Assembly: GCA_027066455.1 (NCBI GenBank)
Contig: JAMONT010000040.1
Location: 1 to 40,069 of the forward strand
DNA from: Candidatus Altimarinota bacterium
GTDB lineage: Bacteria > Patescibacteriota > Gracilibacteria > BD1-5 > UBA6164
DNA: 40,069 bases
Reading direction: 5' to 3'
A program made the translations under genes and the position numbers. The notes below the pieces were generated by a model that did no database searches, was not told the DNA's origin, and saw only the letters and a list, made by a program, of their open reading frames with translations. Below, piece after piece: positions 2,142-25,796 of this stretch; positions within the stretch are counted from its first letter, which is position 1; every line of letters starts with the position of its first letter.

Positions 2142-3863
2142 ATGGAATTTTATAATTGTAAATTTTCTGAATTTTCTGAATGAATATTAAGAAATTGAGG
2201 AATTATTGAAGATCAGGAAAAACCATCAGATATGGTTAAGAGAATAACAGATTGATTAAAAGATATAGATAGTTTTTTTTCAAATTTAGAAAGTACAAAT
2301 ATACATATAAATAATATGAAAAAATATATTTGTACTAAAATGGTTGTTCCAAATACTACAATAATGACAAATTTAGGAAGACATAATTCTAAGCCTCTTT
2401 CTGCTTGTACTGTTCCAGATATAAATATGAAAGGTGATTTTGAAAAGTTAAAAGCTAAGGTTGATAATATACATTTATCTTGAATGTGAACTTGATTTGA
2501 TTTTACTTGATTAGATGATCCTATTAAATTATTATATTTTTTAAATAAGGCTTGAGTTGATTTAGAAGAGTCATGAAAACAAGAAAGACCTGTAGGAAAT
2601 ATGTGAATAATTTCAATTTATGATAAGCATGTAGTTGATTTTATTAATGTGAAAAGATGAGCAGATGAAAGGTGAGAAAAATGGAATTTTAATATATCCA
2701 TATCTATTGATAATAATTTTATAGATGCTGTTAAAAATAATAAAAAAGTACAACTATTAGATTGAAAAGAAATTGATGCAAATGAATTATTTAATTTAAT
2801 TGCTGAATCTGCTTATGATTGTGCTGATCCATGAATTTTATTTATGGATAGAATGCAAAGTTGAAATACAACTCCAGATGTTTGAGAATATGTTTCAGTT
2901 GCTCCTTGTTGAGAAACAGGATTAGCAAAATGAGAAACATGTAATTTTTGATCTGTTAATATTGCAGAATTTGTTGATTCAGATAATAAAATAGATTATA
3001 AAGAGTTAGAAAAAGTTATAATAGATTTAGTTAGATATTTAGATAATATAGTTGAATATAACTTAGATAAGTATTCAGATGAAAGCTCAAAAAAGATAAT
3101 GGAACAAAAAAGAAAAATTTGAGTATGAATATGTGGAGTTGCAGATATGTTTTTGAAATTAAAAATACCATATTGAAGTAAAGAAACAATTGAATTATCA
3201 GAAGATATAATGAGCTTTATAAACTTTAAATCTAAGGAAGCTAGCATAAAATTAGCAAAAGAGAGATGAAGTTTTTGAGCTTTTAATACTTCATTATATC
3301 AAACAAATTATTTAGTTAATACATTTTGACAAAAAAATACAAACACTATATCAAAAGAGGATTGGCTAAAATTAGATAAAGAAATCAAGAAAAATTGATT
3401 AAGAAATTCTAACACAGTAATTCTACCACCAACTTGAAGATCTGCATTAGTCTTTTGAGCAAGTCAACAAATTGAACCAATTTTTGGTGTTAAATGACTA
3501 GATTGAAAATTACCTAAATCATTACTTGAAGAATGATTATCAGAAGATATTTTAGAAGAAATAAATGAGAGTTGAACATTAAATATTTTAAAAATATTAA
3601 AATCTACTAATAAAAAATATAAAAGAATATTAGAAGTTTATAAAACTGCAAATGAATTATCTTTAGAAAATCATTTAGATATATTGGAGGCTTTTTCAAA
3701 ATATACAGATGAAGCTGTTTCAAAAACAGTTAACTTACCAAATAATGTATCTATTAAAGATATTAAAAATGTTTATTTAGATTGTTATAGTAGATGATTA
3801 AAATGAGTTACTATTTATAGAGATTGAAGTAAATTATTTCAACCAATAAAAACTTCTAAATAA
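2142..3863 (+). CDS. nrdJ: Adenosylcobalamin-dependent (class II) ribonucleotide reductase-like protein, divergent
   Basis: 573 residues. It should reduce ribonucleotides to deoxyribonucleotides. Family landmarks run in order: LSAC (Cys89, equivalent of E. coli class I Cys225), GMGTGFDF, an NMG segment, DPGILFMDR, PCGE (Cys256, Glu258, thiyl-radical Cys439 and Glu441 equivalents), CNFGSVNI (Cys267, equivalent of Cys462), GASQQIEPIF, AVSKTVNLP and KGVTIYRDGS. Three things are odd: the residue two before the radical cysteine is Ala254 instead of the near-invariant Asn; the phosphate loop reads PTGRSAL rather than PTGTIS; and the protein stops right after YRDGS, without the C-terminal cysteine pair that normally re-reduces the active site. 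There is no ATP-cone domain. Most glycines are TGA. Nudix and HD hydrolase genes follow on the same strand, suggesting a nucleotide-pool operon. Confidence 0.85.
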
Positions 3864-19535: not shown

Positions 19536-22500
19536 TTAGTTAAAAAATTCTTTTAATAATCTAATTTTTAAATATCTAAAGAAATTTTTGTTTTTGTAAC
19601 TAATATTATTTTTTTCTAACCTTTCTATATTTGTATAAAAAGTAGAAATTTTTCTTTTCTTTGTTTCTTTTTCTAATTTATTTAAAATATAAATCATTTT
19701 ATTCACAAGTCTTAATTGTTTTGAAGAAATCCCAAAATCTGTAACTTCTTCTATTAATTTTTGTTTTTCTTCATTTATATATTTAGCTTCAATAATCCAT
19801 CTTCATTTAATTCATCAAATTGGAGTACAAGTAAATAATGTTAAAATACTTCAAACTCAAGGTTTCAAAACTGAAACATTTTCTTGAGGAGTATTATAAG
19901 ATTTTTCAATTTTATATCTAAATCTTTTGAATTTTCCATTTATTTTTTTAAATACCCAAACTTCTTCTGCTTCATCTAATTCAATAATTTTTTGAAAATG
20001 TGTTTGGTATCTTCAATCATCTTTTTTCCAATAAGAAGAATGTCAAAATACTACTTTATTTCATGGTTTACCATATTCATTTATTGATGAATTTGGATAC
20101 ATCATAGCTCAAGTTTTCAAATAATCATTAACATGAATTTCTTTTCAAGAAATCATTTTTGTAAAATCAATTGTATTAGAAGGAACATGATTTATAGGAA
20201 TTACTAATCAATTAGAAGGAACAACAATATATTCATCTCTATTTTGGTCTTGTTTTGGTAAAACTTGTTTCCAATATTCTATATTATTTATATAGTTTCA
20301 AGCTAATCTAAAAATATTAGAGTCAGGAAGAGTTGTATTAATTCTTTTTTGTTTTATTGTTTTAATTCTTTGAGAAATTGGTGTTCAAGTTTTTGGTAAA
20401 ACTTTTGGAAAATATTTTAATCAAACTCAAATAGTTCATTCTTCCTCTATAATTTTTTCTAATTTTCTTTTTTTATTTATATATGTAATATATTCTGGAG
20501 TGAAATCTCTAATTTTTTCTAATTTTTTAATTATTTCTTTCTTAATTACTTCTATTTTTGGTTCTTCTATAATTTTCTCTTCTTTAAGTTCTTCTGTTTT
20601 TGGCTCTTCTTTTTTAATTATTTTTTTAATTGGTTCTGACTTAGGTTTAGGTTTTTTCTTTTTAGAAGAAGTTCATAATCCTAAATATTCTTCATAAAAT
20701 CAAGCATCTATTGAATAATCATCTATTCCTGAAACAAGAATTATTGTATCAGATTTTCTTGTAGAAAGATCAATATTAGAATCTTTTAAATCATCAGTTC
20801 ATTTATTTTTTGGACTAACTGTATTATAATTAATATTTGAAACTATTGGAGCTTGGAATAAAACTATATATTCTGATGGAATTAAATCTTGAAAAAGATA
20901 TAATCAACCAGTATTTGTAGTTGTATCAGCTAAAAAATTTCCATTATTATCAAATAATTTTACTATAGCATTTTCTATAGGATCTTCTCAAATATCTTGA
21001 ATACCATCTTTATTTTCATCATGCCAAACATAATTTCAAAGTTCTACTTTCATATAAATTCAAGCATCAAGTCCTAAATAATCTTCATTTGAAATAAGAA
21101 TCTTATCTTCAGAAATACCTGTTATTGGATCTATATCAGAATCTATATCATTATTTGTTGTAGAATCTTTTGGTGATAAAAAGTAATTATTTGGAACAAT
21201 TATTTGTACTTTATATTCTTCTGGAATTAAATCACCAAAAGAATAAATACCACCTGAACCTGTTGTAGTTGTAGCTATTTGATTAGAATTTTTATCTAAT
21301 AAATTTACAACAACATTTTCAACTCATACTTCTCAAGAATCTTGAATTCAGTTTGCATTTAAATCATGCCAAACTCTATCTCAAAGACTTGCAAATTCAT
21401 AAATTCAAGCATCCCAAGTTATATCATCTTCTCAACTTTCAAGTTCTGTAATAATTGTTTGTTTAGAAACAAGATTTATATCAGAATCAATAGCATCATC
21501 TGTTCAAATATCTTGATAACTTATCTCATATCATGTTGGAACAACTAATTCTATTCTATAAGGATCTGGAATCAAATTTTCAAATTTATATAATCAACCA
21601 GTATTAGTTGTTGTTGTTTGCAAGACTGTTCAAATAGAACTTAATAAATTTATAGTAACATTTGCTACTCTAATTTCTCAAGTATTTTGAATTCAATCAG
21701 CATTTTCATCAAGCCAAACTATATTTCAAATACTAGCAAGTTCATAAATTCAAGCATCCCAAGTTGGGTCATATTCTCAACTTTCCAAATTTATATTTAT
21801 TGTTTTTCAAGTAACTAAATCAATATCTGAATCTCAAATATCACTTCAAATATCTTGAAAACTTATTTCATATCAAGTTGGTTTTATTACTTCTATTGTA
21901 TAATCTGCTGGAATTAAATTTTCAAATTTATATAATCAACCAGTACTAGTTGTTGTTGTAGATAATTCTGCTCAAGTTGAACTTAATAATTTTACAACAA
22001 CATTTGCTACTCAAGTTTCTCAAATATCTTGAATTCAGTTTGCATTTTTATCAAGCCAAACTATATTTCAAACACTTGCAAATTCATATAAACCTAAATC
22101 CCAAGACAAATCATTTTCTCAACCTACCAAAGTTGTAAGTCCAGTTTTAAAATTAGAAGCCAAATCAGCATCAGAATCAACATTAATATTTGTTCCAGAA
22201 TTTTTTGGAGAAACTTCATAATTAGTTGGTTTAACAAATTCTATCTCATAATCTCATGGAACTAAATTTTCAAAGTTGTAATCTCAATTAACATCTGTAG
22301 AACCTGTAGAAACTACAGCACCACTAGAATTTAATAATCTTATTTCTATATTTTCTATTCAAATTTCTCAAACATCTTGAATTCAATCAGCATTTTTATC
22401 AAGCCAAACTCTGTCTCAAATACTAGCACTTTCATAAACTCAAGCATCCCAACTCATATCATTTTCATCATTAGATAAAGTTGTATTAATTGTTTTTCAA

Positions 22501-25500
22501 GTTGAAATATCAACATCAGAATCAGTTCAAGTTCAAGTAGTATTTTGAGGAGAAAAACTATATCAAGTTGGTTTTACAACTTCTATAGAATAATCTCAGG
22601 GAGCTAAATTATCAAATAAATAAGCTCAAGTTGAACTTGTAGTTGTTGAACTTAATTCTGCTCAAGTTGAGCTAATTAATTTTACAACAACATTTGCTAT
22701 TCAGCTTTCTCAAATATCTTGAATTCAATCTGCATTTGTATCACTCCAAACATAATTTCAAATACTTGCAAGTTCATAAATTCAGGCATCCCAAGTCATA
22801 TCATTTTCTCAACTTTCCAAATCTGTGATTTGAGTTTCTCAAGTTGTAGAATTTATATCTGAATCAATTGTATCATCAGTTCAAGAATCTTGTGGAGAAA
22901 TTACATATCAATTTGGAGTTATAATTTTTATAAAATAATTTTGGGGAACTAAATTATCAAATAAATAAGCTCAACTAGCATTTGTAGAACCTGTAGAAAC
23001 TATTACAGAACTTATATTTAATAATTGTACTTCTACATTTGCAATTCAATTTTCTGAAACATCTTGTATTCAATTAGCATTTTCATCAAGCCAAACATAA
23101 TTTCAAATACTAGCAAGTTCATAAATTCAGGCATCCCAAGTCATATCATTTTCTCAACTTTCCAAATCTGTGATTTGAGTTTTTCAAGTTGTAGAATTTA
23201 TATCTGAATCAATTGTATCATCAGTTCAAGAATCTTGTGGAGAAATTTCATATCAATTTGGAGTTATAATTTTTATAGAATAATCTTGAGGAATTAAATT
23301 ATCAAATAAATAAGCTCAACTAGCATTTGTAGAACCTGTAGAAACTATTATAGAACTAGAATTTAATAATTGTACTTCTACATTTTCTATTCAAATTTCT
23401 CAAACATCTTGAATTCAGTTTGCATTTTTATCAAGCCAAACTCTATCTCAAATACTTGCAAGTTCATATAAACCTAAATCCCAAGATAAATCATTTTCTC
23501 AACCAACTAAAGTTGTAAGTCCAGTTTTAAAATTAGAAGCCAAATCAGCATTAGAATCAACATTAATATTTGTTCCAGAATTTTTTGGAGAAACCTCATA
23601 ATTAGTAGGTTTAACAAATTCTATCTCATAATCTCATGGAACTAAATTTTCAAAGTTGTAATCTCAATTAATATCTGTAGAACCTGTAGAAACTACAGCA
23701 CCACTAGAATTTAATAATCTTACTTCTATATTTTCTATTCAAATTTCTCAAACATCTTGTATTCAATCAGCATTTTTATCAAGCCAAACTCTGTCTCAAA
23801 TACTAGCACTTTCATAAACTCAAGCATCCCAACTCATATCATTTTCATCATTAGATAAAGTTGTATTAATTGTTTTTCAAGTTGAAATATCAACATCAGA
23901 ATCAGTTCAAGTTCAAGTAGTATTTTGAGGAGAAAAACTATATCAAGTTGGTTTTACAACTTCTATAGAATAATCTCAGGGAGCTAAATTATCAAATAAA
24001 TAAGCTCAAGTTGAACTTGTAGTTGTTGAACTTAATTCTGCTCAAGTTGAGCTAATTAATTTTACAACAACATTTGCTATTCAGCTTTCTCAAATATCTT
24101 GAATTCAATCTGCATTTGTATCACTCCAAACATAATTTCAAATACTTGCATAAGGAATATATACTCAAGCATCCCAAGAAATATCATTTTCTCAAGCTAT
24201 TAAAGTTGTTGTAATTGTTCTTTTTGTTGTAGAATTAATATCAGAATCAAGTACATCATTTCAACCTAAATCTTGTCAAGTTATAATATATGGAGCATTT
24301 AGAATAAATTTAACATAATAATCTCAAGGAATAAGTCATACAAAACTATATATTCAAGAAGCATCTGTTGCTCAAGTTCATTTAATTACATTTAAAGAAT
24401 CAAATAATTCTACTCAAATATTTGCTATTCAATTTTCTCAAACATCTTGAATACCATCTCTATCTGTATCAAACCAAACTTTATCTCAAATACTTGCACT
24501 TTGATAAATTCACATATCCCAAGATAAATCATCTTCACCATCAACTAAAGTAGTTGTATCAGTTATAAAAGTAGCTGAATTAACATCAGAATCTGTAGCA
24601 GTGTTTCAACCTTGATTTCTTGGTGAAACAGTATATCAAGCTGGCAAATTAGAAAATTCTACATAATAATCTCAAATAGGTTTATTTACAAAATGATATA
24701 ATCATCATGAAGCTGTTGTTTGAGTTTCTACTAATGTATTATCTGATTTATATAATCTTACAGTTACTCAATCTATTCAAAGTTCTCAAATATCTTGAAT
24801 TCAGTCAGCATTTATATCATTCCATACAAAATTTCAAATTGAAGCTATTTCTGTATAAACTCAAGCATCCCAACTAAGGTCATTTTCTCAAGCTACTAAA
24901 GTTGTATTAATTGTTCTTTTTGTTGTTGTATTAATATCAGAATCAAGTGCATCATTTCAACCTTGATCTTGTCAAGTTATAATATAAGGTGCATCTATAG
25001 TAAATTGTACATAATAATCTCAAGGAGTTAATCCTGTGAAATTATAACTTCAAGTACTACTTGTAGTTGTAGTTGCCTGACTTACATTTGAAGAATTAAA
25101 TAATTCTACTCAAATACCAGAAACTCAGTTTTCTCAAATATCTTGAATACCATTTCTATCTGTGTCAAACCAAACTATATCTCAAATACTTGCTTGAGGA
25201 GCAACATATCAAGGACAATCAGGATCAGTATTATCATAAAATGAAACTCAGTCTATTTTAATAAAATTTCACCCATTTGATGAAATTTTTATTCTAGCTT
25301 TTACTGCTCAAGCTGGAGCTGTAGCAACTAAGGTTTTTTCATCACTAAGTTTATTACCATCACTATTATCAACAACAAAGGTAGTAGGAGAAGTCTTATT
25401 ATGACTTCAAGTAATAACAGCATCTCAAGAATCAAGAAATTCCAAAGTAACAGCTTGATCAACATAGGTATGAACTCAATCATAAAATCTTAATGTATAT

Positions 25501-25796
25501 GTATTTCAAGCAACTACTGATAGATCTTGGTATATTGTTTCAGAGGTCCAAGTATATGCATAATATGTTCAAATAGGGGGTGAATTTGAAGTTCAGACAT
25601 CTCAACCAGAAACTGTCCATCAATTCAAATCTCCCTCAAAAGAACCATTTGTTACCATACTACATCAACCTTGATATGTAGTATAATTAGTATCATCATA
25701 TCAAACAGCATAAGTTTGATTTACAAAAAATCCTGTTCATAAATTTGATAAAATAAAGAACAAAGCTATACTTGCTAGTATTTTTTTTCTATTCAT
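19536..25796 (-). CDS. Giant SdrD-repeat surface protein with an LPKTG motif and C-terminal sortase domain
   Basis: 2086 residues; the two ends and most of the interior were checked with code 25 and no in-frame stop was seen. Domain order: signal peptide (1-33, LASIALFFILSNLGTGFF, cut near QTYA); a galactose-binding-like jelly roll (about 50-195, NGSFEGDLNGWTVSG); 13 SdrD_B Ig-like repeats of about 115 residues (about 198-1700, each with SIGDxVWxDxNxDGIQD and an Asp-rich DxDSDxN calcium loop); a Lys/Pro/Glu linker (1703-1770); LPKTG (1800-1804); a sortase domain (about 1845-2010). The sortase has GNKVVFGHSSYW (His1919), TLFTCTPIGG (Cys1990) and Arg1999. No hydrophobic anchor follows LPKTG and none ends the protein, only a basic helical tail. 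Known sortases and SdrD adhesins are separate proteins; their fusion is the remarkable part. It may be a self-processing or self-anchoring adhesin. Confidence 0.9.
19780..20265 (-). other. Sortase domain of the giant surface protein
   Basis: On the minus strand the domain reads from IVVPSNGLVIPINHVPSN through MMYPNSS, GKPGNKVVFGH (catalytic His at codon 20042-20040), VSVLKPG and LTLFTC (Cys codon 19829-19827) to GRW (Arg codon 19802-19800) and IIEAKY. The order of strands and the TLxTC-P motif are the sortase fold signature. The exact class cannot be set by eye. Confidence 0.9.
20385..20399 (-). other. LPKTG sortase-type motif
   Basis: Codons TTA CCA AAA ACT TGA give LPKTG only when TGA is read as Gly. 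It lies about 115 residues before the catalytic His of the same chain and is followed by TPISQRIKTIKQKR, with no membrane helix, unlike a normal sorting signal. Confidence 0.75.
22381..22770 (-). repeat. 390-bp identical repeat, copy 1 (within the SdrD array)
   Basis: By direct comparison this stretch is identical to 23761-24150, an offset of exactly 1380 bp (four units). Similarity with few mismatches extends back to 22081/23461. It marks a recent duplication or gene conversion. Confidence 0.85.
23761..24150 (-). repeat. 390-bp identical repeat, copy 2 (within the SdrD array)
   Basis: Partner of 22381-22770. Identity ends abruptly at 24150, where this copy continues into a different unit (taaggaatat instead of agttcataaa). 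Confidence 0.85.

Follow-up and report, generated by a model that had tools for sequence, protein, structure and literature searches.

A sortase and a conserved LPxTG-type motif joined to surface stalks in a single chain, mainly in one order of Gracilibacteria

Sortases and SdrD-type adhesins are normally separate proteins, and a sortase normally anchors many substrates, each of which must be held at the membrane. One gene of a Candidatus Altimarinota bacterium (assembly GCA_027066455.1) joins an SdrD-like stalk, an LPKTG motif, and a sortase in a single chain, which raises the question of what an enzyme does when it is attached to a candidate substrate of its own. We analyzed the whole stretch of DNA presented here (40,069 nucleotides, contig JAMONT010000040.1; hereafter, the window) together with related genomes, starting from a preliminary description made from the sequence alone.

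The gene occupies window positions 19536 to 25796 on the minus strand (2086 codons, ATG start) and is read from 25796 to 19536 under genetic code 25, in which TGA encodes glycine. The preliminary description had recognized this frame, which is the same in many independent assemblies; the strand was corrected to minus, the same stretch on the plus strand being closed by many stops. In the family alignment, TGA was used at 71 of the 140 Gly codons in conserved-glycine columns, indicating that code 25 is real for this gene. A chance or frame artefact was ruled out because frame, catalytic triad, and motif were kept in 16 more fusions from other assemblies and because the glycine columns confirmed code 25. 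The neighboring genes are unrelated to the fusion: on one flank rpsB and tsf converge on it, and on the opposite flank an AAA gene and a queuosine gene point away from it. A Pfam sortase search of the genome (G000) picked up only an enzyme on contig C21 and missed the window copy on C40, probably since in-frame TGA codons break up the gene. Such fusion genes are easily overlooked in routine annotation.

The encoded chain begins with a predicted signal peptide (residues 1–30; 25707–25796, minus strand, as for all features below), likely cut after the AxA-like TYA; the signal peptides of relatives end in TFA, TYA, or IYA at the matching position. No other membrane segment was detected in the whole 2086-residue chain. 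The N-terminal domain (residues 43–190; 25227–25670) has a weak likeness to CBM_4_9 (NGSFE...GW), and at E 2e-4, under the Pfam cut-off, the match agrees weakly with the galactose-binding-like domain proposed earlier. SdrD_B repeats span about residues 202–1699 (20700–25193). Pfam recognized 13 stretches (1407 bits summed), and each repeat carries one calcium-type loop, DxNxDGxQDxGE, giving 13 in total, in line with the original count. An exact 390-bp repeat with 1380-bp spacing (four SdrD_B units) at about 22380–24150 appears to be either a recent duplication or an assembly effect, so that in this draft assembly the SdrD_B repeat number could be wrong. A linker rich in K, E, P, and I (residues 1700–1799; 20400–20699) follows the repeats and, judged by eye, takes the position of the SD repeats of SdrD; the full-length NCBIfam SdrD model scored 795 bits against a cut-off of 2500.

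The catalytic barrel of the sortase, delimited by Pfam, alignment, and AlphaFold, covers residues 1855–2007 (19776–20234). Pfam Sortase (PF04203) matched residues 1890–2005 with 43.4 bits against a cut-off of 26.6. The catalytic residues His1919 (GHSS; 20040–20042), Cys1990 (TLFTC; 19827–19829), and Arg1999 (GRW; 19800–19802) were invariant, all three being present in 18 of 18 aligned relatives. A structure check, proposed in the preliminary description, gave an AlphaFold model with a sortase barrel (pLDDT about 80–93), and a barrel was obtained again with the model of a relative (L050). The best fold match was the class C sortase SrtC-1 of Actinomyces oris (2xwg, Z 15.2), followed by class A and E sortases (Z 13.5–13.9). 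The best sequence match in the PDB was the class D sortase of Clostridium perfringens (4d70, E 5e-9), and the NCBIfam class C, D, and E subfamily models gave 18–22 bits, all below their cut-offs of 140–165. With an intact triad and a predicted barrel, the enzyme is, as modeled, an active-type sortase.

The enzyme has no membrane anchor, the sole membrane segment of the protein being the N-terminal signal peptide. Membrane anchoring is usual among sortases and is not essential to the fold family. The C-terminal membrane helix of class C enzymes is absent from the window protein, and their DP[WFY] lid is not conserved before the barrel, where LPxTG stands instead. In the window model, class C alignments start at model residues 14–20, so that LPKTG (model residues 25–29) lies over their lid, as judged from structure-alignment end points. 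The placement was not reproduced with the L050 model, where alignments start at 64–79. The window model's suggestion that LPKTG docks in the active site was not taken as proof, since the segment has a pLDDT of 54 and the docking does not recur in the L050 model; it was treated as a hint.

The barrel is followed by a C-terminal three-helix domain (residues 2010–2086; 19539–19769) without a membrane helix. The same domain ends a 156-residue exported protein of the same genome (L207, C52:13456–13701, E 5.8e-6), and weaker likenesses were seen in L208 and L209. These helices may serve as a docking or retention module, one that may be in general use among the proteins that these bacteria export.

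Relatives with the same fusion and a conserved triad had been proposed as a check. The last 291 residues of the protein, used as a query against 48 genomes of the same family, gave 18 strong matches, the window included, and two more matches, in a sister family, came from an alignment search of 77 genomes of the order. Seventeen fusions were recognized, of which 16 come from eight genomes of one Gracilibacteria order and one from a record filed elsewhere (the window, L032–L035, L037, L038, L039, L041, L042, L044–L048, L171, and L056). Four further enzymes stand alone (L036, L040, L043, and L165). The arrangement is not a singular oddity but a recurring module, and with the frame, the triad, and the barrel all upheld, none of the three outcomes that the preliminary description had named as refuting it came about. 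In five fusions the frame is truncated on its 5' side where the contig or locus stops. The stalks of the fusions are wholly different, consisting of SdrD_B, DUF7507, DUF11, cadherin-like and Big_9 domains, or merely a Ser/Gly-rich chain. The sortases of the fused family form one clade, separate from the housekeeping sortases (support 100/100). A phylum-wide sample of 380 genomes yielded sortase cores only, and within it no match from beyond the window's order extended as far as the motif; the 29 loci inspected from this sample had ordinary single-enzyme layouts. No relatives of the fusion were found in a viral collection.

Two further observations concern single genomes. One genome (G028) holds five fused paralogues (L044–L048), three of which have identical sortase cores and stalks that differ at least in part, a sequence pattern suggestive of gene conversion or module shuffling. 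The fusion L056 comes from a record filed as Peribacteria (JAISMG01), and its frame is open under code 25 only, so that JAISMG01 may have been misfiled or contain contaminating DNA. A shortened copy of the fused gene lies on another contig of this record (L058).

The motif itself proved to be a conserved feature of the fusions. LPKTG (residues 1800–1804; 20385–20399) lies within a sorting signal, P-x-x-L-P-K-T-G-T-P-I-S-Q-R (residues 1797–1810; 20367–20408), defined by conservation among the 17 fusions, and by sortase chemistry the presumed cut site is T1803/G1804. Neither a hydrophobic helix nor a basic tail was detected after residue 1804, as the preliminary description had said; the positions it gave for the motif and for the three catalytic residues were also correct, and the signal peptide and K/P/E linker were present in the minus-strand frame. 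The motif-centered consensus of the fusions is [LYF]-P-x-[IVL]-L-P-x-T-G-T-P-[IL]-S-x-R. Column by column, P-3, L0, and G4 are kept in 17 of 17, T3 in 16, and P1 in 14, and the flanking linker columns are variable. Exact LPxTG occurs in 13 of the 17, the remaining four having one-letter variants (LLKTG twice, LPQSG, and LAQTG). The distance from motif to catalytic Cys is 184–217 residues in all of them. Kept by every fusion amid a variable linker, the motif is, by its conservation pattern, under selection.

None of the four stand-alone relatives has the motif. The association of motif with fusion gives a naive p of 1.7e-4, which describes the pattern rather than testing it cleanly, as the sequences are related rather than 17 independent trials and the fusions were partly found with queries containing the motif region. 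The stand-alone L036 nests among fused copies from the same genome (support 100/98) and reads IPQTRASIGDR where those copies have LPRTGTPIS[ED]R. The cut site is gone, and from this alignment the L036 segment is read as a decayed remnant of the fused-copy motif. A second in-frame LPxTG of the window, LPPTG at residue 428 of a 573-residue protein (2142–3863), has no helix after it and surroundings unlike a sorting signal.

Two of the stand-alone enzymes revealed where the motif can be placed when it is not in the same chain. Directly upstream of L036 (the place also covered by L051), a 229-residue secreted protein (L051, 9153–9842) ends in NSIPTKIPTTGVSISR and a stop codon (IPTTGVSISR, stop); the sortase gene begins 26 bp further on. 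Directly upstream of L165 (the L052 place), a 116-residue secreted protein (L052, 9343–9693) ends in IVTYPNTLPRTGASN and a stop codon (YPNTLPRTGASN, stop), and here the gap to the sortase gene is 13 bp. Both candidate substrates are short low-complexity proteins. Their sortases belong to the fused clade and not to the housekeeping clade, and both have an N-terminal membrane segment, which the fused enzymes lack. A motif placed at the very end of a protein, just upstream of a dedicated sortase, looks like an enzyme-substrate pair, and the fusion would then join a substrate to its enzyme in one chain. No motif-bearing neighbor was found beside the other two stand-alone enzymes, and no bare-motif substrate acting in trans was seen among the matches read in their genomes, G010 and G032, where 8 of 38 and 1 of 31 matches, respectively, came without a locus. 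These two genomes do hold ordinary LPxTG-helix proteins.

The function of the module is suggested by what replaces it. The N-terminal 86 residues of the 229-residue protein have homologues in 13 of the 77 genomes of the order, and most of these homologues end in SLH domains (PF00395). SLH domains bind cell-wall polymers and keep proteins on the surface of the cell that makes them. In L045 (1387–2790), the same N-terminal domain is fused to the motif and sortase, and one genome (G019) holds both the SLH form (L223) and the split-motif form (L210, the same gene as in L051). Across this family (L211–L224, L051 9153–9842, and L045 1387–2790), the Gly/Tyr-rich (GYGYG) N-terminal domain was constant, and the C-terminus was SLH, a bare LPxTG-like motif with an adjacent sortase, or a fused sortase. 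Because one C-terminal anchor replaces the other, the module appears to do the same job, surface attachment. These sequence exchanges suggest that the motif and sortase together behave as a surface anchor and point to anchoring on the cell's own envelope.

The genome also encodes one ordinary membrane-bound sortase, on C21. Conceivably, it is this housekeeping enzyme that, acting in trans, cleaves LPKTG and anchors the stalk; the fused sortase would then be a released by-product or act on something else. Close relatives do have ordinary substrates for such enzymes, with LPxTG-P-[EA], a helix, and a basic tail (KRK), and a pattern search of this genome (97.7% completeness) turned up nothing further for C21 to act on, neither an LPxTG protein with a membrane helix nor a signal-bearing protein with an end-placed motif. 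The LPxTG/FPxTG pattern gave 27 matches against 23 in a reversed control; in-frame matches in an FtsW/RodA-like protein, in cytoplasmic-looking proteins, and in a 61-residue frame without a signal peptide were rejected as substrates, and PF00746 had no convincing match in the genome. However, the fused proteins mostly have [LYF]PxxLPxTG-TP[IL]S with no helix, unlike the ordinary substrates, and in the split pairs a motif of the same kind stands next to an enzyme that groups with the fused sortases rather than with the housekeeping ones. Trans-cutting also leaves the invariant triad of the fused sortase unexplained, and we consider it unlikely.

The split pairs also bear on the possibility that LPKTG is a pseudo-substrate that plugs the groove uncut, in the manner of the class C DP[WFY] lid, the real substrate being another protein. 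Class C lids mimic LPXTG (PMC3493515), and the segment lies over that lid in the window model. Such lids, however, contain no cuttable LPxTG; the motif is gone from the stand-alone relatives, where a lid would remain useful, and it stands at the split substrates' own C-terminus, and the docking was not repeated in the L050 model. This explanation is improbable. Still less credit is given to head-to-tail polymerisation, in which fused sortases would link stalks into fibers through a lysine of the next stalk. Class C pilus-building sortases are the closest folds by Z and G028 has five fused paralogues, but class A and E enzymes fit nearly as well, the split substrates are short and of low complexity, and a shared acceptor lysine is unlikely since stalk domains differ widely between relatives. 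The preliminary description had suggested release of the stalk or its joining to an envelope component or a host surface. Self-cleavage for release or for transfer to another cell accords with the cleavable signal peptide as the only membrane anchor and with the life of these bacteria on other cells (PMC11452946). The module nevertheless takes the place of SLH domains, and this swap points to the producer's own envelope instead, making release or transfer very unlikely. A covalent harpoon, in which the exported sortase would transfer its own stalk from LPKTG onto an amine of a host or prey, welding the cells or leaving the stalk there, is just as hard to credit.

The best-supported reading is that the attached stalk's LPKTG is the site on which the sortase acts, the part of the earlier proposal that stood, with the motif kept in every fusion, absent from the stand-alone relatives, and present in the split pairs. 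We propose that the enzyme works within one chain and probably only once, cleaving the LPKTG that precedes it and handing the stalk over to the envelope of the same cell, a reading to which we assign a probability of roughly 0.6 from the comparisons above. The chain would be exported by Sec and lose its signal peptide; the attached sortase would then take the LPKTG upstream in the same chain and cut it in cis between T1803 and G1804. The stalk would be held as a thioester on Cys1990 and then transferred to an amine in the envelope of the producing cell, a peptidoglycan precursor being the simplest acceptor. The sortase part, now beginning at Gly1804, would be left over, so that each enzyme would serve one molecule. 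With enzyme and substrate tethered, a membrane helix and basic tail would not be needed. An ordinary substrate is retained by its hydrophobic helix and charged tail until the sortase arrives, and a protein whose sorting signal has been deleted ends up in the supernatant (PMC5569036); the missing helix after LPKTG fits the tethered-enzyme view. The cis chemistry is feasible, since engineered sortase-LPETG-target chains (srtA) cut themselves, 20–40% already during synthesis (PMC2901362).

Direct observation covers the parts of the system and how they are conserved, the occurrence of both fused and split forms, and the exchange with SLH anchors; together these describe a natural lineage in which substrate, cut site, and enzyme occupy one chain and the module is reused on unrelated stalks. 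They provide a testable account of how uncultured Gracilibacteria living on other cells could hold giant surface proteins, and the short helix-free sorting signal [LYF]PxxLPxTG can now be searched for.

Reports on CPR bacteria mention sortases merely as present (PMC6744442, PMC6851277). In the open literature searched, with subscription journals and preprints outside its scope, no natural adhesin-sortase fusion was found; the parts are known, and the natural single-chain arrangement with split and SLH-exchange counterparts is unreported there. The protein resembles Gram-positive LPXTG adhesins of the MSCRAMM type (SdrC/SdrD) in its signal peptide, calcium-loop SdrD_B repeats, and LPxTG toward the C-terminal side, whereas here LPKTG is followed by the enzyme itself instead of a hydrophobic helix and basic tail. 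Class C pilus sortases are the best structural match, with LPKTG over the lid in one model, but the window enzyme has LPxTG in place of DP[WFY], lacks the C-terminal membrane helix, and is joined to an adhesin. The class D sortase of C. perfringens (4d70) is a separate enzyme with no substrate fusion. A group B Streptococcus SrtC1 lid mutant, KDPYS to IPNTG (PMC3166054), likewise places a sorting motif in cis upstream of the barrel, although it is engineered, its catalytic Cys is mutated, and the motif is disordered in the crystal. The BISOP fusions (PMC2901362) combine enzyme, LPxTG, and target in one self-cutting chain, as proposed here, but they are man-made and ordered enzyme-LPETG-target, whereas the present chains are natural, exported, and ordered target-LPxTG-enzyme, a natural counterpart to the self-cleaving sortase fusions of protein engineering.
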